Assembly: GCF_000373765.1 (NCBI RefSeq)
Contig: NZ_KB892392.1
Location: 1-62,493 of the forward strand
DNA: 62,493 bases
Source of the DNA: Legionella shakespearei DSM 23087
GTDB lineage: Bacteria; Pseudomonadota; Gammaproteobacteria; Legionellales; Legionellaceae
Reading direction: 5' to 3'
Part shown: positions 134 to 24,966 of the stretch, one piece after another
Layout: each line of letters begins with the position of its first letter
How positions within the stretch are numbered: the first letter of the stretch is position 1
Notes under the pieces: model-generated
Told to the model about the DNA's origin: nothing
Databases searched by the model: none
Seen by the model: only the letters and a program-made list of their open reading frames with translations
Translations under genes and position numbers: made by a program

Positions 134-3055
134 CTACACCACCACTTCATTCAACGTAAAGCCATTCAATATGCCTGGCGTGAAGGGATTGACCTGATTG
201 TTTGTTTTTAACAAATAGCGTCCTGAATTGCTGTTTACTTCAAACAGGATTTGCAGGCTGGAACTGTCTTGTTCATCAACCAATACATTGACCTTTTCCA
301 AGAGCTTGAATATGGCCCAGATACCTTGCTCGGCCAGTTCATAGTGGTTTCCTTCAATAGAGTCTAAAGCCAGTTTTGCATTATTCTGTGGCCATGTGAA
401 GCGCGTAAATGATTCACTGCCTTGGTTATCGGTTAATTTGGTTGCTCCAATTTCCAGATTCAGATTGGCTACCACAGGGTCAAGACTGATTTTTTGTAAA
501 CTGAAATCTATCTTGCACTCATCACCATGATCGGGGAAAAACATGTTAGTGATAATGTTAGCCCTGATGATTTCATCCATAGTCTCAGAAGAAATAGGCA
601 GTACAAAATCGTTGACGGCTTTCGGTTTCCATTCAGCACTGGATGTATCAAGGAATGGTTTAATGTATTGCTCCGAAAAAGTATTTAGTACACCATGAGT
701 TGCAAAGAAACGGTTGAAATCGGCTATTTGTATTTCTTGCTCTTGTGCTGAATCAAAGGGATAGCGTTTTGCGATGGTATTCCTGAATTCATTGAATACG
801 GTTTGTTGCCATTGCTGATTTATATATTGACGACTGTCCCTGATCAGAATAACCCAGGTATCTCCAGCTATTTGCTTTGCCCATGAACTCAGTGGCTCAG
901 GCAATTGACGGGATTGGCTAAACAGGGAACTCACCGGATCAGATGAGTTTTCATTAATAAACCGCGCCCGAGTCAAATTGAAGGCAGTTTTACCACCATC
1001 ATTCACTACAGAAAGGGTTGAAATAAAGCGCTCTAATTCACCTATTTTCTGGCTTAATTCTCTGACACTGGATAGGCTCATTAAATTCAAATCAGTAAAT
1101 TTATGGGCCACAAATTGGTTGAAATTAGAGTTGTCATCGGTAATATCAGGTTTGGTTTCCTGTTGTACCAAAGTGACAAGCCGGTTAATGGCATTCGTTT
1201 GTTGCAAGTTAGCGACAATCTGCCGACCTTGTTGATAGTCCTGATAATGTCTTGGCTGTGACTTTTTCATGAACGTCTGCCACCAGGTAACATAATCGAA
1301 GCAATAGGACTGAATTAACAAATGCTGTAACTGCGCCATATCCTGACGAGCCAATACCCAATTTTCTGACTGCAGCTTGCGGCTGATTGCCGGAATATCT
1401 TTCATTACTTGTTTAAAACCTTCTTTGGTATAATAAACAGGTAATTCATCTGTTGCCAGATTAAAGCCTTCTACTGCGATTTTTTGCTTGTCTTTAGAGA
1501 ACGATTCTTTGGCAATAGAATAAAATAAATAACTTGTTGGCAAAGCATTGAGATAGTTTCTGGCATCGCTGATGATTTGTTGCTTCGTTTGCACATGATG
1601 CACAGGCTTGGCAAGCGTACTCTTTAACAACGCCAGCTGTTTCGCGGCGGTGCCTGGCTTTTGATCTCGCCATTTGTATTTGAACCAATCCTGGACTTCA
1701 TTTGCTGAAAAAAATTCTGGTTGTGCCAGCATCAAGTAAATCTTTAATGCTTTATAACGCACGATAGGTGTATTACCGGGATTAGTGATTTCTTCTTCCA
1801 GATCATTGGTCAAGGCGGGTAAAAACTCCCCTTCCAGCCGTTGCTGGGTATTATTATGCAGATTTAACTTAAGTTGATGTACCGTTGGCAAAGAGATGGA
1901 GTTAGTGGCTATATGATCCATGTCATTTGCTGCTTTAGACAGATGGTACAAGGCTTGTGCGCCATTATTACCTTGAGAGTTTAAGGTATCATAGGCAAGT
2001 AATTCTTTACTGGCATCATCAAGCAGATGCGCTGTTTTGTAATGATTGTAGCTCATGACCAGTAGGGTAATACCTGCAATGCTGGCAGCGGCTGCAATAA
2101 TGGGTTTTTGGGAAAATTTCCTGGTTTGAGGTGCCTGGCTGCATTGTTCTTGAATTGTTTTCAGAGCGCCTTCAACAAAGTACGCGCGGTAATTGGTGGC
2201 CTGAGGAAAGGTATCCTGAACAACAAGGGCGTATTCATGCTGAATCTTTTTATTCAAACGATCAATACTTACGCCACCTTGTTCGGCACTGGTAAAATAG
2301 AGGGAGTGAAGTTGAAATAATTTGGGTGAAATTCCCTGTATTAGTGCTTGTATTGGGGCGCGCAGGCTGGATAATTGCAAAGGTAGTTCACGAATCAGGC
2401 TGCGTTTGATAGTAGAACGTACGGGATGCATTTTGGTGATCACTTGCTGGGCAAGCAATTCAACCAGTTGATTAAATTGTTGGGAATACGTTTCAACTTT
2501 TTTGCGCACCTGGTTGAGGCAATCCAAAGAGAACCCTAAGGGTTTGGATAAATCAGAGGCATGTTCCATTTGATAAAATTCAGTGAACCCAGCCAGCGTA
2601 TCCATTTTTGTAAAGATCAGCGCCAGTTCAACCTGATACCCCAGATTCACTCCAAATTTTTCCAGCAATTGCAAATGGGATTTTTTACTTTCTGCAAACT
2701 GGGCAGGCTCTGCGATTAATAGATCATTGACGTCAACACATAAAATCAAGCCTGTAATTTTAAGGTAACGGTTGCAACGATTTAATTGTTTTAAGGTATT
2801 TTGTAATAAGGTTTTACTGTTGGTAAGCCAGCTTTCACCCAGCTCGACAATAATGCCTTGTTGGTTAAAATATATTTTTGCATGCTGCTCACTAAATACC
2901 GGCATTTCTTCCATAGTACTTTGTTTTAGCAGTGCCGATTTCCCCTGTTCGTTTTTACCAGTAATCACTATGAAGGATAATTGGTTAACCTGGGGTTTTA
3001 ATTGGGAAAGTATTTTTTTTATGGCATCAGATAATGCACGTAACGAGTTATCCAT
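134..3055 (-). CDS. icmF: IcmF, inner-membrane component of the Dot/Icm type IVB secretion system
   Basis: IcmF works with IcmH/DotU in the inner membrane to stabilise the Dot/Icm core complex, which delivers effectors into host cells. The product has 973 residues, as expected for L. pneumophila IcmF. A Walker A motif, GKNEQGKS, lies at residues 33-40, and a single strong hydrophobic segment begins near Pro318 (about 318-337). The long C-terminal part is largely hydrophilic. The start codon overlaps the icmH stop by one base (TAATG), so the two are translationally coupled. The stop codon directly abuts a palindromic repeat (44-131). IcmF/TssM homologues also occur in type VI secretion systems, but the partner is of the short IcmH type and no other T6SS gene is in view. 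Confidence 0.95.
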   Translation of the reverse strand: MDNSLRALSDAIKKILSQLKPQVNQLSFIVITGKNEQGKSALLKQSTMEEMPVFSEQHAKIYFNQQGIIVELGESWLTNSKTLLQNTLKQLNRCNRYLKITGLILCVDVNDLLIAEPAQFAESKKSHLQLLEKFGVNLGYQVELALIFTKMDTLAGFTEFYQMEHASDLSKPLGFSLDCLNQVRKKVETYSQQFNQLVELLAQQVITKMHPVRSTIKRSLIRELPLQLSSLRAPIQALIQGISPKLFQLHSLYFTSAEQGGVSIDRLNKKIQHEYALVVQDTFPQATNYRAYFVEGALKTIQEQCSQAPQTRKFSQKPIIAAAASIAGITLLVMSYNHYKTAHLLDDASKELLAYDTLNSQGNNGAQALYHLSKAANDMDHIATNSISLPTVHQLKLNLHNNTQQRLEGEFLPALTNDLEEEITNPGNTPIVRYKALKIYLMLAQPEFFSANEVQDWFKYKWRDQKPGTAAKQLALLKSTLAKPVHHVQTKQQIISDARNYLNALPTSYLFYSIAKESFSKDKQKIAVEGFNLATDELPVYYTKEGFKQVMKDIPAISRKLQSENWVLARQDMAQLQHLLIQSYCFDYVTWWQTFMKKSQPRHYQDYQQGRQIVANLQQTNAINRLVTLVQQETKPDITDDNSNFNQFVAHKFTDLNLMSLSSVRELSQKIGELERFISTLSVVNDGGKTAFNLTRARFINENSSDPVSSLFSQSRQLPEPLSSWAKQIAGDTWVILIRDSRQYINQQWQQTVFNEFRNTIAKRYPFDSAQEQEIQIADFNRFFATHGVLNTFSEQYIKPFLDTSSAEWKPKAVNDFVLPISSETMDEIIRANIITNMFFPDHGDECKIDFSLQKISLDPVVANLNLEIGATKLTDNQGSESFTRFTWPQNNAKLALDSIEGNHYELAEQGIWAIFKLLEKVNVLVDEQDSSSLQILFEVNSNSGRYLLKTNNQVNPFTPGILNGFTLNEVVV

Positions 3056-3955: not shown

Positions 3956-5545
3956 TTAATGTTTAAAATGACGTATGCCGGTGAAGACCATGATTATGCC
4001 ATGCTCTTCGGCACAGGCTATGATTTGATCGTCTCTGATTGAGCCTCCGGGCTGGATTATAGCGCTAATTCCTGCTTCTGCTGCGATTTCTACAGTGTCA
4101 GGGAAGGGAATAAACGCATCCGATGCCATAACGCTGCCTTGCGGATTAAAACCCATTTGCTCCGCTTGCCAAAGCCCGATTCGTGCACTCATCACCCTGC
4201 TTGTCTGGCCGCCGCCTATACCAATAGTAGCTCCATCTTTAGCATATACTATAGCGTTTGATTTCACGTGCTTGGCTGCAAGCCAGGCAAACATTAAATC
4301 CTGCATTTGTTGTGCAGAGGCTTTATTTTTAGTGACGGTCTGCAGTTCGCAGTTTACTAAAGACAAGGAATCATGTTCCTGTACCAATAGACCACCATCA
4401 ACCTTTTTCATATTAAGCCGGAATGCATTTTCCTGGTTCCAAAAGCCAGTAGCAAGGACACGAACGTTTTCTTTGGCAGCCAGTACTTTTTTAGCTTCTT
4501 CGCTGACTTCCGGAGCTACTATGACCTCGACAAACTGCTTTTCAAGAATAGCTTTGGCCGTCTCTTTATCCAGGGTTTGATTAAAGGCAATAATACCTCC
4601 ATAGGCTGATTGCGGATCCGATTGGAAAGCCCGTAAATAAGCATTATGGATGTTATTACTGATGGCAATCCCGCAGGGATTGGCATGTTTGATAATAACG
4701 CAAATGGCTTGATCGGCCGGAAACGATTTAACACAATCAAGAGCCGCATCAGCATCCAGTATATTATTGTAAGATAACTGTTTGCCCTGAAGCAGTGTTG
4801 CTGCACCTAAAGAACCCGTTGCTGCATTCTTATCGGCATAAAATATGGCTTGCTGATGTGGATTTTCACCATAGCGTAAGTCACTGATTTTATTAAATTG
4901 ACAGGTAAGCACATCAGGAAAACCACTTGGAGTACAATCAGCATCCAAAGTCGTCAGATAATTGGCTATGGCTGCATCATAAGCTGCCGTATGGGCAAAT
5001 GCTTTTTTCGCCAGAGTAAAGCCCCAATGCGATGGCGCTTTTTTAGTCTGTAGACATTCAATCAGTTCAGCATAGTCGTCAGGTGTTACTACTACAAAGG
5101 TATGGGCATGGTTTTTAGCCGCTGCGCGTACCATGGTAGGGCCACCAATATCAATGTTTTCTATGGCCTTGTTAAAATCACAATCGGGTCGGCTGATGAC
5201 CTGTTCAAAGGGGTATAAATTGACGATCAGTAGCTCAATAGGCTTTATATTGTGCTCTTCCAGGCTCTGCCTGTCTTGTTCACCGCGTGCCAGCAGGCCT
5301 GCATGAATGGCTGGATGTAATGTTTTGACTCTGCCGTCCATCATTTCCGGAAAACCGGTGCATTCACTGACATCGGTGACAGGCAGGTTATGTTCTCTTA
5401 ACAAGGCCGCGGTATTTCCTGTGGCGATTAACTCTATCTCGTTGAGATGCAGAACCTGTGCAAGCTCAACTATGCCGCGTTTATCAGATACACTGAGTAA
5501 TGCTCTGCGTGGCTGGAATGAAGAATAAATCTGTTTTTTGGCCAT
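3956..5545 (-). CDS. purH: Bifunctional AICAR formyltransferase / IMP cyclohydrolase PurH
   Basis: PurH catalyses the last two steps of IMP synthesis: formyl transfer from 10-formyl-THF to AICAR, then ring closure. The start taken (ATG at 5545, MAKKQIY...) gives 529 residues, the usual length. An in-frame extension to 5611 would overlap prmA. The N-terminal MGS-like cyclohydrolase domain (about 1-150, with RALLSVSDKRG and the GGPTMVRAAAKN segment) is followed by the formyltransferase domain (ALDCVKSFP, KHANPCG, SDAFIPFPD). AGGA precedes the start. It lies 28 bases after prmA as the last gene of the aroQ-accB-accC-prmA-purH operon. Confidence 0.97.
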   Translation of the reverse strand: MAKKQIYSSFQPRRALLSVSDKRGIVELAQVLHLNEIELIATGNTAALLREHNLPVTDVSECTGFPEMMDGRVKTLHPAIHAGLLARGEQDRQSLEEHNIKPIELLIVNLYPFEQVISRPDCDFNKAIENIDIGGPTMVRAAAKNHAHTFVVVTPDDYAELIECLQTKKAPSHWGFTLAKKAFAHTAAYDAAIANYLTTLDADCTPSGFPDVLTCQFNKISDLRYGENPHQQAIFYADKNAATGSLGAATLLQGKQLSYNNILDADAALDCVKSFPADQAICVIIKHANPCGIAISNNIHNAYLRAFQSDPQSAYGGIIAFNQTLDKETAKAILEKQFVEVIVAPEVSEEAKKVLAAKENVRVLATGFWNQENAFRLNMKKVDGGLLVQEHDSLSLVNCELQTVTKNKASAQQMQDLMFAWLAAKHVKSNAIVYAKDGATIGIGGGQTSRVMSARIGLWQAEQMGFNPQGSVMASDAFIPFPDTVEIAAEAGISAIIQPGGSIRDDQIIACAEEHGIIMVFTGIRHFKH

Positions 5546-11201: not shown

Positions 11202-14200
11202 CTACAAGCTCAGGGAGAGGTTATCAGGTTCTGTTTCAGGTAATCGTTCCTTTCTGGGAGCTGGAGCTTCAGAAAAGAATCCAGGGTCATAAGCCGGTGG
11301 AACTTCTCTTCTTAAAGTCTGATTTCTAAAGAGATCCAGTGATAAATCAGAACTTTTATCCGGATGGTTTTGATACAATTGCCTGATTTCATCAAGTAAG
11401 GCTTGTTTTACGCCCGGTTTGGTCATCCCCAATAGTAACTGCTGCTGTTTCTCATAAAAAGTACGATTATGGGTTTGTTCATTGGGGCGTTCTTTTTGGG
11501 CATGAACCAATTCATGGCTTACCACATCTAATAACTTATCCAGCACATGAGGAGTCAGATTGCCGTTGCCAGATTCCAGACTGGTTAAAATGGTTTTTCC
11601 TAATTCTTTGGCCGCTTCATAAACATTCCAATAAATGATGCGACTTGATTGATAAGTATACATCAGACTGCCATTTGCCTGGGTGGAAAATCCAATGTTG
11701 ACTTCGGGATAGCCTAAGCGAGCAACCGCTTTTTGAGTAATCGCCGCAAGCAATCCCCAATTGGATTGCAGATCATATTGTCCTTGTCTCCATTCCCTGT
11801 CTGGAATTACCTGATTTTCATTAGCCAGTCGTTCCTGTTTTTTCCTGTTTTGCATTTCCGTTTTATAATGACTGGTAAAGCGTTCCAGATATTGGGGAAC
11901 ATGTTTCAGAGATGGCAATGTGTCATTTTTATTATAGTATTGCGCCAGCTCGACTAAAGAGTATTTTTTTTCTGAATGTGCATCTTTGAACAAAGGTAAA
12001 AACGCAATCAATGCATGCAAACGGGCAGCTGATTCATATTGTGTATAATCAGATAAGGGCTCGTTATTCATCAAACGCTTTGCATCTTCTTCAACCTGAT
12101 TATTGCTTAAATTGGATGAGTAAATAAATCGGTCAAAATAAACAAAAAAATCATAAGGTAATTCATTTACATGTAGCTGTTGGCTGAGGATGAGCCGTGC
12201 ATAAGATTCAATGTATGCGCGCATTATAAATGGTTTAATGAATTCATAGACTTCAGCAGCATTAGTGAAATCAGTTCGCTCCCGATTTAATGGCATTGCT
12301 TTGGGAAAATCAATAATAATTCCCTTTTGACGTACTGTTGCACGTATTTCTTCGGGAACAAAATGATCCATAGTGCCAATAGATTTCATGGCAAGCCCTG
12401 CGACAGTCATTTTATCTTCAATGGAACTAAAGACTTTTATTTCCCCCAGAGGTGGCATGTCGATTCTGGCCAAAGGGGTTAATGGTTTATTGATCTGTTG
12501 CCCATTGAGTGAGATTACCGCCTGATTGGCATCAACAGTGGCACCATGCCCATGAAAAGTTCTTTGATGGCGTGCGGCAGCAAGCCCTGGGTTTTCTCCC
12601 TGTTCTACCCGTTCAATTGCTACTCCTTTGAACATGCCTTCTTTTTGTTGCCATTTGATTTGAATGTCGATGATTTTCTGTTGGGCATCGTATACCGGGG
12701 TAAATTCAAAAAGGGTATAAGTGCCATCCCCTTTCCCGGTTTTCAGGCGCACACAATGTGCATTATGGTAGATGGTAAAGAGTCCCACACCATGCCCGCC
12801 AATAAAATGCTGGTGATTATCCGCCCTTTTGGTCGAAGCACCTGGCAAGCAAAAATACTGGAACACCTGCTGTAAATTCATGCCTGTGCCAAAATCCTCC
12901 AGCCTGAATACGCTATGGTTTCCTTCTCGAAAAAGAGTGGCAAGAATCTGGGACGAACTATCTTGCCCGGGTTCAGCAGAGTAAGCATCAAGAGCATTTT
13001 GCAGTAATTCGCGCTCATATAAATGCTGATTTGGATCTGCCTGGTGATAAATGGCATGTTGTAGCAAACGTTGAAAATGGGCTTTTTTGCCATAAGCGCC
13101 AAAGGATTGGGTTTTTTGCAGGAATTCCTGAGGGGATTGGGCTAACAAGTGCAAAATCGTACTGTCAAATTGATAAGCCATCATAAAGTCTGTCAATGAG
13201 ACGCTTTGTGCCTGAGACTCTTCAAGTGCAGGAAGTGGATTATTTTCAGCCAATAATTGATCCGCTGGGAACAGCAAATAATAAGCCATTTGGCCTGCTG
13301 TATTGGGCATGGCATCGAGATAGGGCTTGGATTGGGCAAAATCCCCATAACATGCGGCCAGTTTTGTTTGTTGCTTGCTTAAGGACTGGTGCAATTGTTC
13401 CAGTTCATTGAGGCCGTAGTGGTTGATCACATCAATTAACTTTTGCGCTATTCCTGACTGATCTGTTTCATGCAATACATAGCAGAGCAGATCAAAGGTT
13501 TTGAAGATTAACTCCTGGTCCCGAGGACTTAGCCCATCTGCAAAATGAATGATGCTGCGATATTCGGGTAGTAAATGAGCTGAGGGAGTGTAATGAAAGT
13601 AGTTAATATAAGGAAGCATTAAGCTCAGGTGCTCAAGAGGTAAGTCAATGAGGCGCAAGCATTGGGAATAGTGGTCAAAATCGAGATTCTGCTGGTTTAA
13701 CCAAGCCAGTTTTCTCATTACTTCTGGCGAGTTCAGTTGCTCTTCAGTTAGTGCTGATAACACCGCCCCTTTGGGGAACCCTTCATGCGGTCTTGCTTTT
13801 AAAACAGTATGACGCAAAAAATCGTGGTATTCAGGAATGAATTTTTTATAAAAAGGGTAGCCGCGATCGGTCAATAAAAGATTTGATTTTTCTTTAGACA
13901 TGGCCACTAAATCATCAACCGCAGAATGAGCATTGTTGGAGGGCTTTACTTTTCCATGTGGTATATGAGCATAGGGGGTAATTAATTTATTTCCTTCAGA
14001 GGAGAATAAGTATACGTAGGATGGTTTTTGCTCCGCTATCGATAACCACTCCTCCTTTTTTATTACCAGTCCATCACCATTAATTAATTCATTGTCACCA
14101 TTATCATAGTCAATAACAAAGAACACCTGATCATCTTCCTCGTAAAATGAAATAAATTTTGCTTTCTTTCTGATAAGTTGCTTGTTGTTTCTATCAAATA

Positions 14201-17200
14201 AAATACCATCTACAGCGAAAAAATCGCCCTGACAGGTTGATGAATATATTGAAAAATCATAACCTTCATACAGCATACGGCCTTGCGTGTCGACCAGAGT
14301 TTTATAAGTAACTGGGGACCAACCTTCATTTTTTTTCGGCAGCTTTGAATTTTCAATGAGATAATAAGCCCCTTTTTTGTAAATGGAGCCAATATCATCA
14401 TAAGGCCATGCCAGATTTAATGAAACAAATTGCTGTACCTCGGGATCAAAAAGAACGAGGCCATCAGTCGTTTCCAGAAGAACGGGCATGTCTTTATTGC
14501 GTTCTGTAATTTCAACATTATCCGATTCCCGCCTTGCAGGATGGGCGCCTCTATGTCTAAGATATCCCTGAGACGTTTGTAGAACGTCTGTCGTGGTCAA
14601 GTCAGCAGGAATTAATTGTACGTATTGAGCCGCTTCATTATTCACGCCTTGTATCGTAATGCCACGTACAGGATAGGCAAAAGTATGTTGGGGGCTATAG
14701 TACATTATTTCATCCTGGTCTTTGTGGGCCACCACCAAATGTACTTTTCCTTTTTTATCAAGAATGGAAATGTAGTACATGCTGTCGATAACGCGACAAT
14801 CTATCTTTTGTATAGAATCTATCGGTATTTGCCCCAACGCTTTTTCTATTATTTGAGAGCCAGAATGTTCAGGATCAATAATCTGGATATTTTTATATGA
14901 TGAATAGTAATTGGATTTATTAAGCAGGATGATTAATCCGTTCTGCTTATGTATGAACGTGTCTTGAGCTGTATATTGTCTCTTTTCGACATCATAAATT
15001 TTTGTACCTGAATCACGTTTTTTACAAAGCAAGAGGCAAGGGCTTTTACTGAGTAATGTGCACTCTTCTGCATAAATCGTGTCAAAAGATTGGGTATTGG
15101 AATTATATATCTGGATGTTGTTTCGGCTTTTAAGTAAACAGAGTGACGCGTTGATTTTTTCAACTTCCCAATATCCCTCTTTAATCAGCTCTCCCAAGCC
15201 ATTAACAAGGTTATATTTTTGGGTTTTTGAATCGCGAACACACAATACGTCTGACTTTGTCAACTCGATTTCTACTTCGGGTAACCTCGTTACTGCTTCA
15301 TCACGATTATAAATATTAGCAGAATAAACGTGTTTGATTTTAGCCACTAACAAATCCCATTGGGGATGATGTAATTTCTGAAATTTATCGTCAAATAAGC
15401 CTCTGTTGTTTGTGGCGAATGAGTAGTAAAAATGTTTCCCCTGAAATCTGAACTGAAGCAGGAGATCACCAACACTATGGTCGCTGTAGCCATCTGAATA
15501 CTCTAAAGCAGGGGAGGTTGCTACAAGGGTTTGGGCTTTCATCAGGATGCTCATAGCCTGAGGGTGGCTATCTAAAATGTTTTGCGTGGCTTCATCACCG
15601 TAAAGCTGCAATACCCCATGTTGTTGATACAATGGATGCAAGGGATTGGCTAAAACCTGAGGTTTGTAGTGTACCGAAGACAGGTGCTCTTCAATCATTT
15701 GGTCATCATGGACGAGTTCCTCGCTCTCATTCCTTAAGGTGATTGAGAGTTCGCCGGGAGGGTATTGAAACAGCAATTCCAGCATGGCCAGATTATTTTC
15801 TGCTTTTAAGCGCTCGTAAAACTCGGCATCGACAAAAACACAGTCTTTTTCAGGATCAACCAGATAAGGTTTTTCCTGGCTGTTAAGAAGATGAGCCACA
15901 TAGAGTTTTGATTTCCCTGAAAATTCTGGGGCTACCTGTGCCACCGTTTTTAGCCAGTTATTTGGAGTTATCAGGGGATGCAAGCGTAAGACCTGATTGG
16001 CTGCCAATTGGCGATAAGGCTCAACGTCAGGAACGTATTGGCAGTCATAAAGACGCTGGTTCACCGTATTGATTAATGTTTCAAATACGTTGTCTTCTGC
16101 TTTTAACGAAGCATTACTGGCCTGTAACTCTTTGACCAGTGGGGCAATACTGTTGGCATAAGCCACCCATTGAGGATGGGGCATGCTGTCAATTTTCCGG
16201 ATTAGCGCAACAATTTTATCCCTTATTTCCTGATTGTCTAATATTACTCTGTTCCTGGCTTCAGAAATGTTGGTTGTTCGAGGGAATTCCCAAGAGACAT
16301 TTTGGCTAAAACTCTCTGCTGGATGAATGATTTTGGCTATTGCGATACCGCCTATGTAAATAACGGTTTTGTTTTCTTTATGCTGCGGTTGAATTTTTTG
16401 GCCATTGATGTGGACGGGCACATCAAGATCTTCTGCCAAATGTTCGGTTAACATCTGTTCAAATTCATGTTTTTTCACATCACTGGAACTCACCCTGGTG
16501 ACTGTGCCCAGAGGAATGTTATTGTCTTCTTCCATGGTCACGCTGATTTCACCCTTAATACGGCGAAATTCAATACGGCAGCCTTTATGTCCCTGTTTTC
16601 TCGTTTCGATAACAATTTTATCGTGCTCATCTTTTAAATGAGCGAGTTTTAAAAAGCTGCCAATGCCAAAGCGACCAATTTGTTTGGCGGAATCGGTTTT
16701 GGTTGTTTCTTTGGGGAGCAGGTATTTGGTGAATAAAATTTCAGGCGACATACCTTGCCCATCGGTTTCACGGATTTCATAAAAACCATCTTCTATGGTG
16801 CAATCAATCTGGCTTGGGTGTGCATCAAGGGAGTTACTCATTTCTTCAACAATAGAGCGCGCCCTGAACGCGTTCTGATTGTATATATCGCCTTCAATAC
16901 TTTCATCAACTGGTGGGTGAAAGCGGTGGGTGAGCATAGAACGCATATGATCATTAAATGCGAAGTGTTGCATGTATGTATCGAAATCTTCAGCGTTTAA
17001 TTGTTCTGCGTCAGGAAGAGTTATATTAAGTTTTAAAAAGGTGATCAGAGGAATCAGTGGAATGAATTTTTTCAGGCCATATTCTTTTCTTAGCTGAATG
17101 ATTTGTGCAACGGTTAATTGTGTTAGATTAACGTCTGCTAACCAGGGTTGCTGAGAAGCATCTTTAACAAATTGTTCCTGCTCAGTAAGAAGATTAAATT

Positions 17201-17213
17201 GAGGCATAGTCAT
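11202..17213 (-). CDS. Giant protein with two GHKL (Hsp90/gyrase-like) ATPase modules and a C-terminal HExxH metallopeptidase motif
   Basis: I do not recognise this as a named gene. It has 2003 residues with no signal peptide or clear membrane segment. Module 1 (about 110-370) has the Bergerat-fold motifs: N-box EEMSNSLDA (123-131), G1 DGQGM (151-155) and G2 GRFGIGS (180-186). Residues about 600-1100 are rich in short beta-type units with recurring Gly/Trp/Tyr, perhaps a propeller or WG-like repeats. Module 2 (about 1395-1660) has ERELLQNALDAY (1400-1411), EDFGTGM (1439-1445) and GGHGVG (1472-1477). Both modules are followed by a similar Arg-rich stretch (SEARNRV; LNRERTDF). Residues 1900-1904 are HELVH, a zinc-metallopeptidase motif, with another His at 1915. 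The C-terminus is acidic (ERLPETEPD) and ends in Leu-Ser-Leu. The start is ATG at 17213 or at 17207. Organisation recalls sacsin-like Hsp90 repeats; a chaperone, defence protein or secreted effector are all possible. Confidence 0.85.
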   Translation of the reverse strand: MTMPQFNLLTEQEQFVKDASQQPWLADVNLTQLTVAQIIQLRKEYGLKKFIPLIPLITFLKLNITLPDAEQLNAEDFDTYMQHFAFNDHMRSMLTHRFHPPVDESIEGDIYNQNAFRARSIVEEMSNSLDAHPSQIDCTIEDGFYEIRETDGQGMSPEILFTKYLLPKETTKTDSAKQIGRFGIGSFLKLAHLKDEHDKIVIETRKQGHKGCRIEFRRIKGEISVTMEEDNNIPLGTVTRVSSSDVKKHEFEQMLTEHLAEDLDVPVHINGQKIQPQHKENKTVIYIGGIAIAKIIHPAESFSQNVSWEFPRTTNISEARNRVILDNQEIRDKIVALIRKIDSMPHPQWVAYANSIAPLVKELQASNASLKAEDNVFETLINTVNQRLYDCQYVPDVEPYRQLAANQVLRLHPLITPNNWLKTVAQVAPEFSGKSKLYVAHLLNSQEKPYLVDPEKDCVFVDAEFYERLKAENNLAMLELLFQYPPGELSITLRNESEELVHDDQMIEEHLSSVHYKPQVLANPLHPLYQQHGVLQLYGDEATQNILDSHPQAMSILMKAQTLVATSPALEYSDGYSDHSVGDLLLQFRFQGKHFYYSFATNNRGLFDDKFQKLHHPQWDLLVAKIKHVYSANIYNRDEAVTRLPEVEIELTKSDVLCVRDSKTQKYNLVNGLGELIKEGYWEVEKINASLCLLKSRNNIQIYNSNTQSFDTIYAEECTLLSKSPCLLLCKKRDSGTKIYDVEKRQYTAQDTFIHKQNGLIILLNKSNYYSSYKNIQIIDPEHSGSQIIEKALGQIPIDSIQKIDCRVIDSMYYISILDKKGKVHLVVAHKDQDEIMYYSPQHTFAYPVRGITIQGVNNEAAQYVQLIPADLTTTDVLQTSQGYLRHRGAHPARRESDNVEITERNKDMPVLLETTDGLVLFDPEVQQFVSLNLAWPYDDIGSIYKKGAYYLIENSKLPKKNEGWSPVTYKTLVDTQGRMLYEGYDFSIYSSTCQGDFFAVDGILFDRNNKQLIRKKAKFISFYEEDDQVFFVIDYDNGDNELINGDGLVIKKEEWLSIAEQKPSYVYLFSSEGNKLITPYAHIPHGKVKPSNNAHSAVDDLVAMSKEKSNLLLTDRGYPFYKKFIPEYHDFLRHTVLKARPHEGFPKGAVLSALTEEQLNSPEVMRKLAWLNQQNLDFDHYSQCLRLIDLPLEHLSLMLPYINYFHYTPSAHLLPEYRSIIHFADGLSPRDQELIFKTFDLLCYVLHETDQSGIAQKLIDVINHYGLNELEQLHQSLSKQQTKLAACYGDFAQSKPYLDAMPNTAGQMAYYLLFPADQLLAENNPLPALEESQAQSVSLTDFMMAYQFDSTILHLLAQSPQEFLQKTQSFGAYGKKAHFQRLLQHAIYHQADPNQHLYERELLQNALDAYSAEPGQDSSSQILATLFREGNHSVFRLEDFGTGMNLQQVFQYFCLPGASTKRADNHQHFIGGHGVGLFTIYHNAHCVRLKTGKGDGTYTLFEFTPVYDAQQKIIDIQIKWQQKEGMFKGVAIERVEQGENPGLAAARHQRTFHGHGATVDANQAVISLNGQQINKPLTPLARIDMPPLGEIKVFSSIEDKMTVAGLAMKSIGTMDHFVPEEIRATVRQKGIIIDFPKAMPLNRERTDFTNAAEVYEFIKPFIMRAYIESYARLILSQQLHVNELPYDFFVYFDRFIYSSNLSNNQVEEDAKRLMNNEPLSDYTQYESAARLHALIAFLPLFKDAHSEKKYSLVELAQYYNKNDTLPSLKHVPQYLERFTSHYKTEMQNRKKQERLANENQVIPDREWRQGQYDLQSNWGLLAAITQKAVARLGYPEVNIGFSTQANGSLMYTYQSSRIIYWNVYEAAKELGKTILTSLESGNGNLTPHVLDKLLDVVSHELVHAQKERPNEQTHNRTFYEKQQQLLLGMTKPGVKQALLDEIRQLYQNHPDKSSDLSLDLFRNQTLRREVPPAYDPGFFSEAPAPRKERLPETEPDNLSLSL

Positions 17214-17309: not shown

Positions 17310-17594
17310 CCGAGCCGCGACCGTGAGAGAAAGTTGTATAATACAGTTTGCCCATATTTTCTACGTACCGCGGCTTGTCCGCGGTATCCAGTTCGATCTA
17401 CTAATGAGCACAAAGACTTGATATCTTTCATATTTACGCTGAATTTTCTGGATCCTGCGGACAAGCCGCAGGACGTAGGTGATTATTACTACATTCTCGT
17501 GAGGGAGCGGAACAGTTCGATGCACTACGATGCTCCGTGTTACTGTTCGTATTCGTTCGTATGCACCAGGGTTCCGCTCCCTCACGGTCGCGGC
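17310..17594. repeat. Family D palindrome with nested family F palindrome
   Basis: The left arm CCGAGCCGCGACCGTGAG and the right arm CTCACGGTCGCGGC flank a composite. Inside, 17361-17478 is a family F palindrome (CTACGTACCGCGGCTTGTCC and its counterpart ending GGACGTAG), and 17497-17520 repeats the family D arm GTGAGGGAGCGGAAC. The several open frames across this segment are by-products of repeat symmetry. The rest of the gap, 17595-17972, is the proA upstream region. Confidence 0.8.
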
Positions 17595-17972: not shown

Positions 17973-19601
17973 ATGCACCCAAATTATTATTTGTCACCTT
18001 TAGCTGTTGCCGTTGCTTTAGGTTTAGCCTCGCCAGTAAAAGCTGCTGAACCTATGCCTTTACAGAAGGCAAGTTTTGCTCAATTACAGCAAAAATTTCA
18101 ATTGTCCTTACCAGGTGTTATGAAAGGTGCCACTGTTAGTCCTGATAGCCTGCAATTTATCAGACAACATACAGATGCCAACAAAGTGACTCACGTTCGC
18201 ATGCAGCAACAATATGCAGGATTCCCTGTCTTTGGCGGTTATGCCATTATGCACAGTAAAAATACTGCCAAATCTTTAGCTTCAGCAAAATCTGATGTTG
18301 AAATGAATGGCGTGGTGTATCAAGGTCTGCAATCTGAATTGGGTCAGCCCAGTGATTCTTTTGTTAAGAACGCTTCTGTGGCTTTGCAACAGTTCAAAAA
18401 AACCTATGCGGATAACCGTGTTAGCGAAGAACAAGTAACACCAATGATTTATATAGATGACAAGCAACAAGCTCATTGGGCTTATAAAGTCAGCGTGTTT
18501 GTCAGCTATGACGATAAAATTCCTGCGCGTCCCACCGCTATTATTGATGCGCAAACCAATAAGCCTTTTGTTCAGTGGGATGACGTGAAAACAGCAACGG
18601 TTCCTGCAAAAGGAACAGGCTTTGGCGGAAACAATAAAATGGGTGAGTACCAGTTTGGTAAAGAATTACCTTTTCTGGAACTGAGCCGTGATGTGACTGC
18701 TGAAATGTGTTACATGGAAAATACTGATGTTAAAGTAGTGGATATGTTGCATAAGTATTATTCTAATAACAAACCCATGCAGTTTTCCTGTAAAGCCGCT
18801 GTTGACAATCAATCCAATATCTTCTTCACTGGTTACCAGGCGGATGGATATGACAGAGATAATGGCGCATCGTCACCAACTAATGATGCATTATATGCAG
18901 GTTATGTAATCAAACATATGTACCATGACTGGTATGGTATAGAGGCGTTGACCAAATCTGATGGTACGCCCATGCAATTAGTAATGCGCGTTCATTACGG
19001 TTCTGGTTATGAAAATGCATACTGGGATGGCAGACAAATGACCTTTGGTGATGGCGATACCATGATGTATCCATTGGTTTCATTAGGTGTTGGCGGTCAT
19101 GAAGTAAGCCATGGTTTCACGGAACAGCATTCAGGTCTTGAGTATTTTGGCCAGTCTGGTGGTATGAACGAAGCATTCTCTGATATGGCAGCTCAAGCCG
19201 CTGAATATTATTCAGTAGGCAAGAACAGCTGGCAAATTGGCCCTGAAATCATGAAAGAAGACAGTGGTTATGAAGCCTTACGTTATATGGACAAACCAAG
19301 TAAAGACGGTCGTTCTATTGACGTAGCTGATGACTATTATGGTGGACTGGATGTGCATTATTCCAGTGGGGTATTCAACCATCTGTTCTACATCCTGGCG
19401 AATCAACCTGACTGGAATACCCGTATGGCATTCGATGTTATGGTGAAAGCAAACATGGATTACTGGACACCTTATTCAACTTTTGATGAAGGCGGTTGCG
19501 GTGCTTTAAAAGCAGCTAAAGATTTAGGTTATTCTTTAGATGATGTTAAAAAATCACTGAGTGATGTGACTATTAACTACCAATCTTGCTTTACTGAATA
19601 A
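17973..19601 (+). CDS. proA: Secreted zinc metalloprotease ProA (Msp, major secretory protein)
   Basis: Thermolysin-like M4 protease exported by type II secretion; in L. pneumophila it is the main secreted protease, a tissue-destructive factor and an activator of other exoenzymes. It has 542 residues: a signal peptide (about 1-24, ending VKA), an FTP/PepSY-type propeptide (about 30-205), then the mature enzyme. Zinc ligands are His376 and His380 in HEVSH, with Glu400 in GGMNEAFSD; catalytic Glu377; His462 in DVHYSSG is the expected transition-state histidine. AAGGAG lies 9 bases before the ATG. It stands alone, with repeats on both sides. The symbol here means the protease, not glutamyl-phosphate reductase. 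Confidence 0.97.
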   Translation: MHPNYYLSPLAVAVALGLASPVKAAEPMPLQKASFAQLQQKFQLSLPGVMKGATVSPDSLQFIRQHTDANKVTHVRMQQQYAGFPVFGGYAIMHSKNTAKSLASAKSDVEMNGVVYQGLQSELGQPSDSFVKNASVALQQFKKTYADNRVSEEQVTPMIYIDDKQQAHWAYKVSVFVSYDDKIPARPTAIIDAQTNKPFVQWDDVKTATVPAKGTGFGGNNKMGEYQFGKELPFLELSRDVTAEMCYMENTDVKVVDMLHKYYSNNKPMQFSCKAAVDNQSNIFFTGYQADGYDRDNGASSPTNDALYAGYVIKHMYHDWYGIEALTKSDGTPMQLVMRVHYGSGYENAYWDGRQMTFGDGDTMMYPLVSLGVGGHEVSHGFTEQHSGLEYFGQSGGMNEAFSDMAAQAAEYYSVGKNSWQIGPEIMKEDSGYEALRYMDKPSKDGRSIDVADDYYGGLDVHYSSGVFNHLFYILANQPDWNTRMAFDVMVKANMDYWTPYSTFDEGGCGALKAAKDLGYSLDDVKKSLSDVTINYQSCFTE

Positions 19602-24587: not shown

Positions 24588-24737
24588 TTTAAATACAGTA
24601 TGCTAAGTATAACATCATCATGCCTTGCAGGGTGGAAATTTATCACTTTTGATGCAATTTATTTGCATTAATCCATTAAATCTCTTTTCAATAGTGCAAG
24701 ACTTGCGATAAAGCGCCTCCGGGCGGGGTGCGCTGCG

Positions 24738-24867
24738 ATTAAGTTAGGCGGTACTCCGCCGTCCCGCGGCTTGTCCGCGGGATCCAGAGATCTAAGTTCG
24801 GAGTGAGATTCCTGGATACCGCGGACAAGCCGCGGTACGGTGGAGTACCGCTTAACTTAATGGCAGT
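24738..24867. repeat. Family F palindrome with the CTTAACTTAATGGCAGT edge
   Basis: The arms are ATTAAGTTAGGCGGTACTCC... and ...GGAGTACCGCTTAACTTAAT, with the core CCGCGGCTTGTCCGCGG mirrored by CCGCGGACAAGCCGCGG. The exact 17-base edge sequence occupies 24851-24867. It lies in the 24588-24966 gap upstream of pssA. Confidence 0.8.
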
Positions 24868-24966
24868 GTATCTTCCTGGAGGAGTTTTTCGTATGTCCTG
24901 TAGTAGTTTTTGGCGCAATTATGATAGCATGTGGTTGATTTCGATATTATTGAGGCTTGCTTGCGA

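Follow-up and report, generated by a model that had tools for sequence, protein, structure and literature searches.

A 62,493-nucleotide stretch of Legionella shakespearei DSM 23087 (assembly GCF_000373765.1, contig NZ_KB892392.1, positions 1 to 62,493), referred to here in its whole length as the window, contains a giant gene whose predicted product combines two Hsp90-like ATPase modules of the GHKL type with a C-terminal peptidase-like domain. A first-pass annotation of this DNA had described a 2003-residue protein at 11202..17213, and the list of open reading frames (ORFs) contains such a frame at this place, lying on the minus strand (which that annotation left unstated) and read from 17213 to 11202. 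In this protein, designated as P0001, no signal sequence was seen by eye. Its domain architecture is supported by computation; an ATPase and a protease activity, a client and a biological role are what we infer for it.

Two GHKL ATPase modules

The first module (N-module) begins with a GHKL (Bergerat) domain at residues 95-270 (16404..16931; this and all other features of the protein lie on the minus strand), which is recognised by Pfam, the predicted structure and the alignment. Its key residues are Glu123, Asn127, Asp130, Glu149, G152/G154 and G180-G185, its motifs are RSIVEEMSNSLDA (119-131), DGQGM (151-155) and IGRFGIG (179-185), and it is followed by an S5-like part (residues 276-350, 16164..16388; predicted structure and alignment) with an invariant Arg320 in the sequence ISEARNRVILD. 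In the second module (C-module), the GHKL domain covers residues 1378-1560 (12534..13082) by NCBIfam, predicted structure and alignment, with key residues Glu1402, Asn1406, Asp1409, Asp1440 and G1472-G1477 and the motifs ERELLQNALDA (1400-1410), DFGTGM (1440-1445) and IGGHGVG (1471-1477). The S5-like part of this module, indicated by predicted structure and alignment, extends over residues 1564-1650 (12264..12524) and contains the sequence PLNRERTDF with Arg1646. The two motif sets are present where the first-pass annotation had placed them, and the Arg-containing segments after them are RNR (320-322) and RER (1644-1646).

The Pfam model HATPase_c_3 matches two stretches of P0001 (E 6.5e-10, 39.6 bits compared to a cut-off of 25), and the Pfam results, the structures and the motif table agree that P0001 has the N, G1 and G2 motifs of a Bergerat fold, by which a GHKL ATPase is recognised. 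When the two halves of the protein were modelled separately, Hsp90/TRAP1 structures were the best PDB match of both, which bears out the earlier suggestion of two Bergerat-fold modules; on these models, each module is a predicted GHKL plus S5-like domain, i.e. a unit of the Hsp90/sacsin type. Profile comparison indicates that the N- and C-modules are homologous to one another (the profiles for this comparison and for that with HtpG exclude P0014, P0015, P0013 and P0021). The HtpG profile was made from the centre ORFs of eight loci, and its probabilities are approximate, since one of these ORFs (L040) is seemingly in the wrong frame and two others (L038 and L039) include upstream reading. The lists of structure matches, being dominated by Hsp90, bear little on the folds of the middle and zincin regions, and nothing was drawn from that part of the VIA range of the C-half which extends into the zincin (to 817; root-mean-square deviation of ~7).

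The conservation of the catalytic residues was counted in an alignment of 20 sequences, the window protein included. Glu123, Asn127, Asp130 and Arg320 of the N-module are kept in all 20, and of the 18 sequences that reach the C-module all have Glu1402, Asn1406 and Arg1646, with Asp1409 present in 17. The adenine-site Asp is less constant. In the N-module, 11 of the 18 unpermuted rows, including the window protein with its Glu149, have a Glu and one extra residue, and 7 have the usual Asp, which is the residue of the paralogue clade at this place. In the C-module, this column has Asp in 13 of 18 sequences and Asn in 3 (P0004, P0005 and P0006), and in L028 and P0014 the Asp is one column over. 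The PLNRERTDF loop of the C-module resembles what we take to be the loop motif of Hsp90 that carries Arg380, with Arg320 as a candidate counterpart in the N-module, and on the basis of this motif we propose that Arg1646 would occupy the position of Hsp90 Arg380. A passage of PMC9880540 discusses the role of this Hsp90 residue and also cites a non-catalytic view.

In two distant relatives, viz. P0014 (residues 31-200) and P0015 (residues 190-362), the order of the N-module motifs appears to be altered: IGxxGxG stands directly after the N-box, and the DxGxGM block comes ~130-140 residues later. Block profiles built from the other sequences (leaving out P0014, P0015 and L028) score in both proteins above the best of 100 shuffles for the N-box and for DxGxGM (8.2 and 10.6 bits for the latter block vs 3.2), and the GxGxG-block profile does not do so, so that the placement of IGxxGxG rests on inspection by eye and the alignment. 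The N-module of these two proteins would be a rearranged Bergerat fold.

The C-terminal HExxH domain

Residues 1815-1965 (11319..11771) form a predicted zincin, as indicated by the predicted structure and weak profile matches. The HELVH sequence reported earlier at residues 1900-1904 (11502..11516) is present and is the sole HExxH of P0001; it lies within a predicted helix, and the candidate third ligand His1915 (11469..11471, in THNRTF) stands two residues ahead of the next helix. When P0001 is shuffled 5000 times, some HExxH turns up in 789 of the shuffles, and in the final 110 residues in 56 of them; the motif by itself is thus weak evidence and it is the conservation that carries the case. 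HExxH is kept in 17 of the 18 aligned sequences reaching it, window included, and His1915 in 16 of 18, the distant P0014 and P0015 having no His in that column. In an alignment of 11 chosen sequences (A6), an invariant HExxH is followed by an equally invariant Glu, four positions further, and T-H-x3-F; since P0020, P0014 and P0015 are outside A6, these residues are not invariant throughout the family.

The Pfam family matched by most members is SprT-like (PF10263), with 5 of 11 sequences at E 1 and a best E of 0.0025, below the cut-off. Comparison of the domain by hhalign gave 36% with a SprT profile (5 sequences, from 6 chosen of 30 loci, as L051 gave no HExxH ORF) and 44% with a YgjP profile (13 sequences, from 15 chosen of 30 loci, as L078 and L100 gave none). 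On this weak resemblance, a minimal zincin of the SprT/YgjP kind is the favoured, not proven, identity of the C-terminal domain. Of the zincin fold with a third ligand that the first-pass annotation had named as a check, a conserved HExxH domain and a plausible ligand in His1915 are supported, and the fold itself depends on weak profile similarity and predicted secondary structure.

Other regions of the protein

Between the two modules, a mixed alpha/beta linker (residues 351-640, 15294..16163; predicted structure) without a Pfam match is followed by a beta-rich middle (residues 645-1110, 13884..15281), which evolves faster, is modelled with lower confidence and has no Pfam match even at E 10, and by a predicted helical region (residues 1156-1365, 13119..13748). 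A further linker, predicted to be helical (residues 1652-1780, 11874..12260), leads to the peptidase-like domain, and in the C-terminal tail (residues 1970-2003, 11205..11306) the predicted local distance difference test score is <50. A sequence search of the PDB with the whole protein gave no match at E 1.

Relatives and their distribution

Searches of 5.8 billion proteins yielded 19 distinct entries. Two of these are from the same genome, viz. the window protein (P0002) and its paralogue (P0016), and the remaining 17 comprise 15 close family members and the two distant proteins P0014 and P0015; two of the close members, P0013 and P0021, are of reduced length, with no C-terminal part. The paralogue (P0010, locus L019) has 2298 residues and shows 30-31% identity to P0001 in the matched parts. 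Among 143 Legionellaceae genomes, a match at E 1e-13 was found in 6; complete copies are present in 4 of the 143 (two in the genome studied here, and G080, G007 and G036), and G016 and G119 contain only pieces of the gene. The partial copy in G016 (L023; a 161-aa open frame) adjoins an ankyrin-repeat gene and is near a gene for a YhcG-like nuclease. A seventh genome (G125) has a decayed C-terminal fragment of a P0010-like gene amid housekeeping genes (L042, ~4800-5100), with no HExxH within the open frame as it stands. In the class-level sample, some match at E 0.001 was seen in 131 of 369 genomes, with complete copies in 2 (this genome and G498); most of the other matches listed are frames of ~600-700 aa matching one module only, which we read as behaving the way HtpG and MutL would.

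A scan of GTDB contigs with alignment A3 detected six loci, whose titles name Proteobacteria, Legionella (two), Gammaproteobacteria, Candidatus Caenarcanales and Deltaproteobacteria; the same scan with a single protein in place of the alignment found nothing. The Candidatus Caenarcanales locus (L028) has the same domain order and is a relative from another phylum, viz. Melainabacteria in the NCBI taxonomy. In the Deltaproteobacteria record, a 296-aa ORF (L029:9689-10579) has the GHKL N-part fused directly to an end with HEVTHH...THGLSF, and represents the family in miniature or with a deletion. The family is rare.

Several relatives carry an additional domain at the other end. An ACTMAP-like N-terminal domain is precomputed for P0007, P0009, P0013 and P0020, and was confirmed slightly above the cut-off in P0007 and found below it in the paralogue P0010. 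These N-termini align with a Q-x4-C, an EH and a Trp-containing motif, consistent with a C39-type active site. By Pfam, P0001 has no C39/ACTMAP-like domain, and the possibility that it was lost just upstream of the gene was rejected, as tblastn with the N-termini of three relatives left no trace of it there; the sole weak upstream match (17361-17480, E 0.026) involves that portion of P0010 which is itself matched by a dispersed repeat. One complete member (P0020, L021) keeps its N-terminal C39-like domain although its HExxH is replaced by DEIAH, so that the two peptidase domains may decay separately.

The ratio of nonsynonymous to synonymous substitution rates (dN/dS) for P0010 vs P0018 is 0.194 overall, with 0.175 for the C39-like domain, 0.149 for the N-module, 0.316 for the beta-rich middle, 0.102 for the helical region, 0.110 for the C-module, 0.195 for the linker, 0.255 for the zincin and 0.265 for the tail. 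All regions are thus constrained in this pair, the zincin less than the ATPase modules. Further, the patchy spread of the family and its decayed or partial copies (G125/L042, G016, G119 and L029) suggest an accessory, dispensable function.

Genomic setting and origin

The neighbouring genes were sampled at the window (10) and at L019-L023 (two each, 10 in all). No Pfam family recurs between loci among these 20 neighbours, and 2 of the 20 have no Pfam match. The first-pass annotation had pointed to presence or absence across Legionella and in defence islands as a check; the presence is patchy, as described above, and a defence island is not indicated, as four window neighbours tested had no PADLOC match at E 1e-4 and the ten examined by Pfam are mostly metabolic. 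Adjoining the giant gene on the opposite strand is a gene for a thermolysin-type M4 peptidase (17973-19601), and at the left end of the window there is an IcmF-family gene (134-3055), which in our view fits an organism bearing the Dot/Icm system.

A viral origin was rejected because no relative came up when viral contigs were scanned with A3, with P0015 and with the protein of L028, and a plasmid or phage origin because neither P0001, searched by tblastn against plasmids, nor P0010, searched likewise against phages, had a homologue there. The top structure matches in BFVD include GHKL proteins of Orpheovirus and Homavirus, which we take to be giant viruses of amoebae; the list consists mostly of phage RIIA and topoisomerase proteins and so reflects the GHKL fold. 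The GC content of the gene (0.410 vs 0.423 for the window) is uninformative on transfer. This genome contains 84 matches (40 of 182 candidates scored) to an inverted repeat of ~115 bases, which is dispersed, with many of the matches on both strands of the same places; it is found in the window at 24733-24901 and in the P0010 gene at residues ~299-348, where the translated copy forms an in-frame insert without a counterpart in P0018.

Relationship to known systems

P0001 resembles Hsp90/HtpG/TRAP1 in having, by structure, a GHKL domain with an S5-like middle domain after it, and further the catalytic Glu and Asn, top PDB matches to this family for both halves and a PLNxxR-like loop in its C-module. 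However, it contains two units in one chain where Hsp90 is a homodimer, together with extra middle regions and an attached peptidase-like domain, and the family models are not reached: NCBIfam PRK14083 (HSP90 family protein) gives 52.1 bits vs a cut-off of 455, with the best stretch at 1383-1488, and no Hsp90 family is among the Pfam matches at E 1. Passages of PMC3710099 and PMC9880540 describe sacsin (SACS) as a giant chain with repeated Hsp90-like GHKL units and extra C-terminal domains. P0001 is likewise a giant chain in which Hsp90-like GHKL units recur and to which a C-terminal domain is added, but it has two units rather than three and an HExxH domain instead of the DnaJ and HEPN domains of sacsin, for which no Pfam match was seen in P0001 at E 1 or in four pieces of it at E 10. 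The C-module scores 33.9 bits with the NCBIfam model of the sacsin N-terminal domain (P_loop_sacsin; cut-off 50), and P0010 scores 20.1 bits with PF25794 of sacsin (cut-off 32.8).

The C-terminal domain shares with SprT-like, YgjP and minigluzincin (proabylysin) proteins an HExxH with a His and an aromatic residue behind it, along with weak profile matches, but it has no match above a curated cut-off and is attached to GHKL modules. The PADLOC protein TmtA, which we take to be the Tiamat protein, shares short stretches of GHKL motifs (E 0.002 and 0.014), but these cover 20 and 76 residues of models with 1486 and 1782 positions, and nothing matches outside them. By the curated models, P0001 stands outside Hsp90, sacsin, SprT-like and TmtA, its architecture being akin to the first two, and we rate it as a multi-unit Hsp90-like GHKL protein with an added effector domain. 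No paper describing this domain order was found in the open-access literature, to which the search was confined and whose silence is no proof of absence; this agrees with the first-pass annotation, which knew of no characterised family with this order.

Proposed mechanism and alternatives

The reading we prefer, to which we give about an even chance, is that P0001 unites in a single chain a peptidase and an ATP-driven clamp of the Hsp90/sacsin kind. In this clamp, which would be of the Hsp90 type, the GHKL-S5 modules would stand for the two protomers, here fused in cis, and the binding of ATP would close them on a client polypeptide gripped by the long middle region; the closure would then present the client to the C-terminal zinc peptidase, or open the peptidase, and the client would be cut. 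As sister proteins carry a C39-like cysteine-peptidase domain at the opposite terminus, two different cutters may share one clamp. This reading is supported by the homologous Hsp90-type modules with conserved ATPase residues, the conserved HExxH domain, the same domain order in another phylum and the purifying selection in the sister clade; the hydrolysis of ATP, cis-dimerisation and clamp closure, client capture, zinc binding and proteolysis, as well as the client and the place of action, are what we infer from it. The observations of the first-pass annotation are confirmed and its interpretation is supported in part.

Several results weigh against this reading. In sequence, the S5-like parts are not similar to the HtpG profile, the model of the N-half, obtained from separately modelled halves, has a predicted template modelling score of 0.44, and due to the inconstant adenine-site Asp one or both ATP sites may be weak. 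The dN/dS of P0001 vs P0003 is saturated for most regions. For the C-terminal domain, the zincin assignment draws on weak profile similarity and predicted secondary structure, and P0020 departs from HExxH. One member matches DUF6065 (E 0.0014) better than SprT-like, and the domain of the window protein matches neither, only DUF2278 at E 0.023. In the PDB, six matches were obtained at E up to 10, and the sole zincin among them, proabylysin (E 0.35), stands behind unrelated proteins at 0.29 and 0.34, and shuffles keeping the HExxH reach the observed hhalign score in 1 of 100 cases for SprT and in 2 of 100 for YgjP.

An injected, host-directed protein, delivered into a protozoan host where the clamp and peptidases would act on host proteins, is a doubtful alternative. 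Most of the named relatives are Legionella or other gammaproteobacterial records, and the IcmF-family gene, the tail modelled with low confidence, the ACTMAP-like domain of relatives, the ankyrin-repeat gene beside the G016 copy and the Orpheovirus and Homavirus matches are in its favour. However, the tails of the members are not conserved, the viral matches are those expected of the GHKL fold, with no relative in the viral contig scans, and the Melainabacteria copy with the same order argues against the family being solely host-directed.

Unlikely as well is a single-gene defence or stress sensor, in which the Hsp90-like modules would recognise a protein that is foreign or misfolded and activate the peptidase as an effector within the bacterium. 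GHKL proteins occur in defence systems, and the patchy spread of complete copies, the pieces in other genomes and the weak TmtA matches are in line with such a role, as are the YhcG-like nuclease near the G016 copy and a DUF488 gene near the G007 copy, both of which match PADLOC candidate models. However, the TmtA matches extend over 20 and 76 residues, the window neighbours examined are without PADLOC matches or mostly metabolic, and tblastn did not detect homologues in plasmids (for P0001) or phages (for P0010), where chromosomal defence genes need not be found.

Least probable, indeed quite improbable, is a pseudo-peptidase, with the protein acting as a scaffold or chaperone and its HExxH domain binding metal or peptide without cutting. 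The weak zincin similarity and the missing first His of P0020 would suit it, and against it are the retention of HExxH and of the third His in nearly all members, the constraint on the zincin and the HEVTHH and THGLSF kept in the 296-aa ORF of L029.

Returning to the preferred reading, an AAA+ ring is generally the basis of the known ATP-dependent proteases, as in Lon, FtsH and ClpXP. P0001 would, like these, couple ATP to proteolysis in one machine, but with a Bergerat-fold ATPase in place of the AAA+ ring; that it represents a class of ATP-dependent proteases in which an intramolecular Hsp90-type clamp seizes the substrate and gates its cleavage, with one or two unrelated peptidases on the chain, is a tentative suggestion. 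If true, the joining of two Hsp90-type units to a peptidase in one chain would be a different way of coupling ATP to proteolysis, and would allow a test of whether clients can be handed to a fixed protease by a clamp of the Hsp90 kind. The second, unrelated peptidase domain of the sister forms suggests that the clamp could serve more generally as a platform for delivery. For sacsin, whose ATPase mechanism a passage of PMC9880540 describes as still debated, the family also offers a comparison from bacteria.

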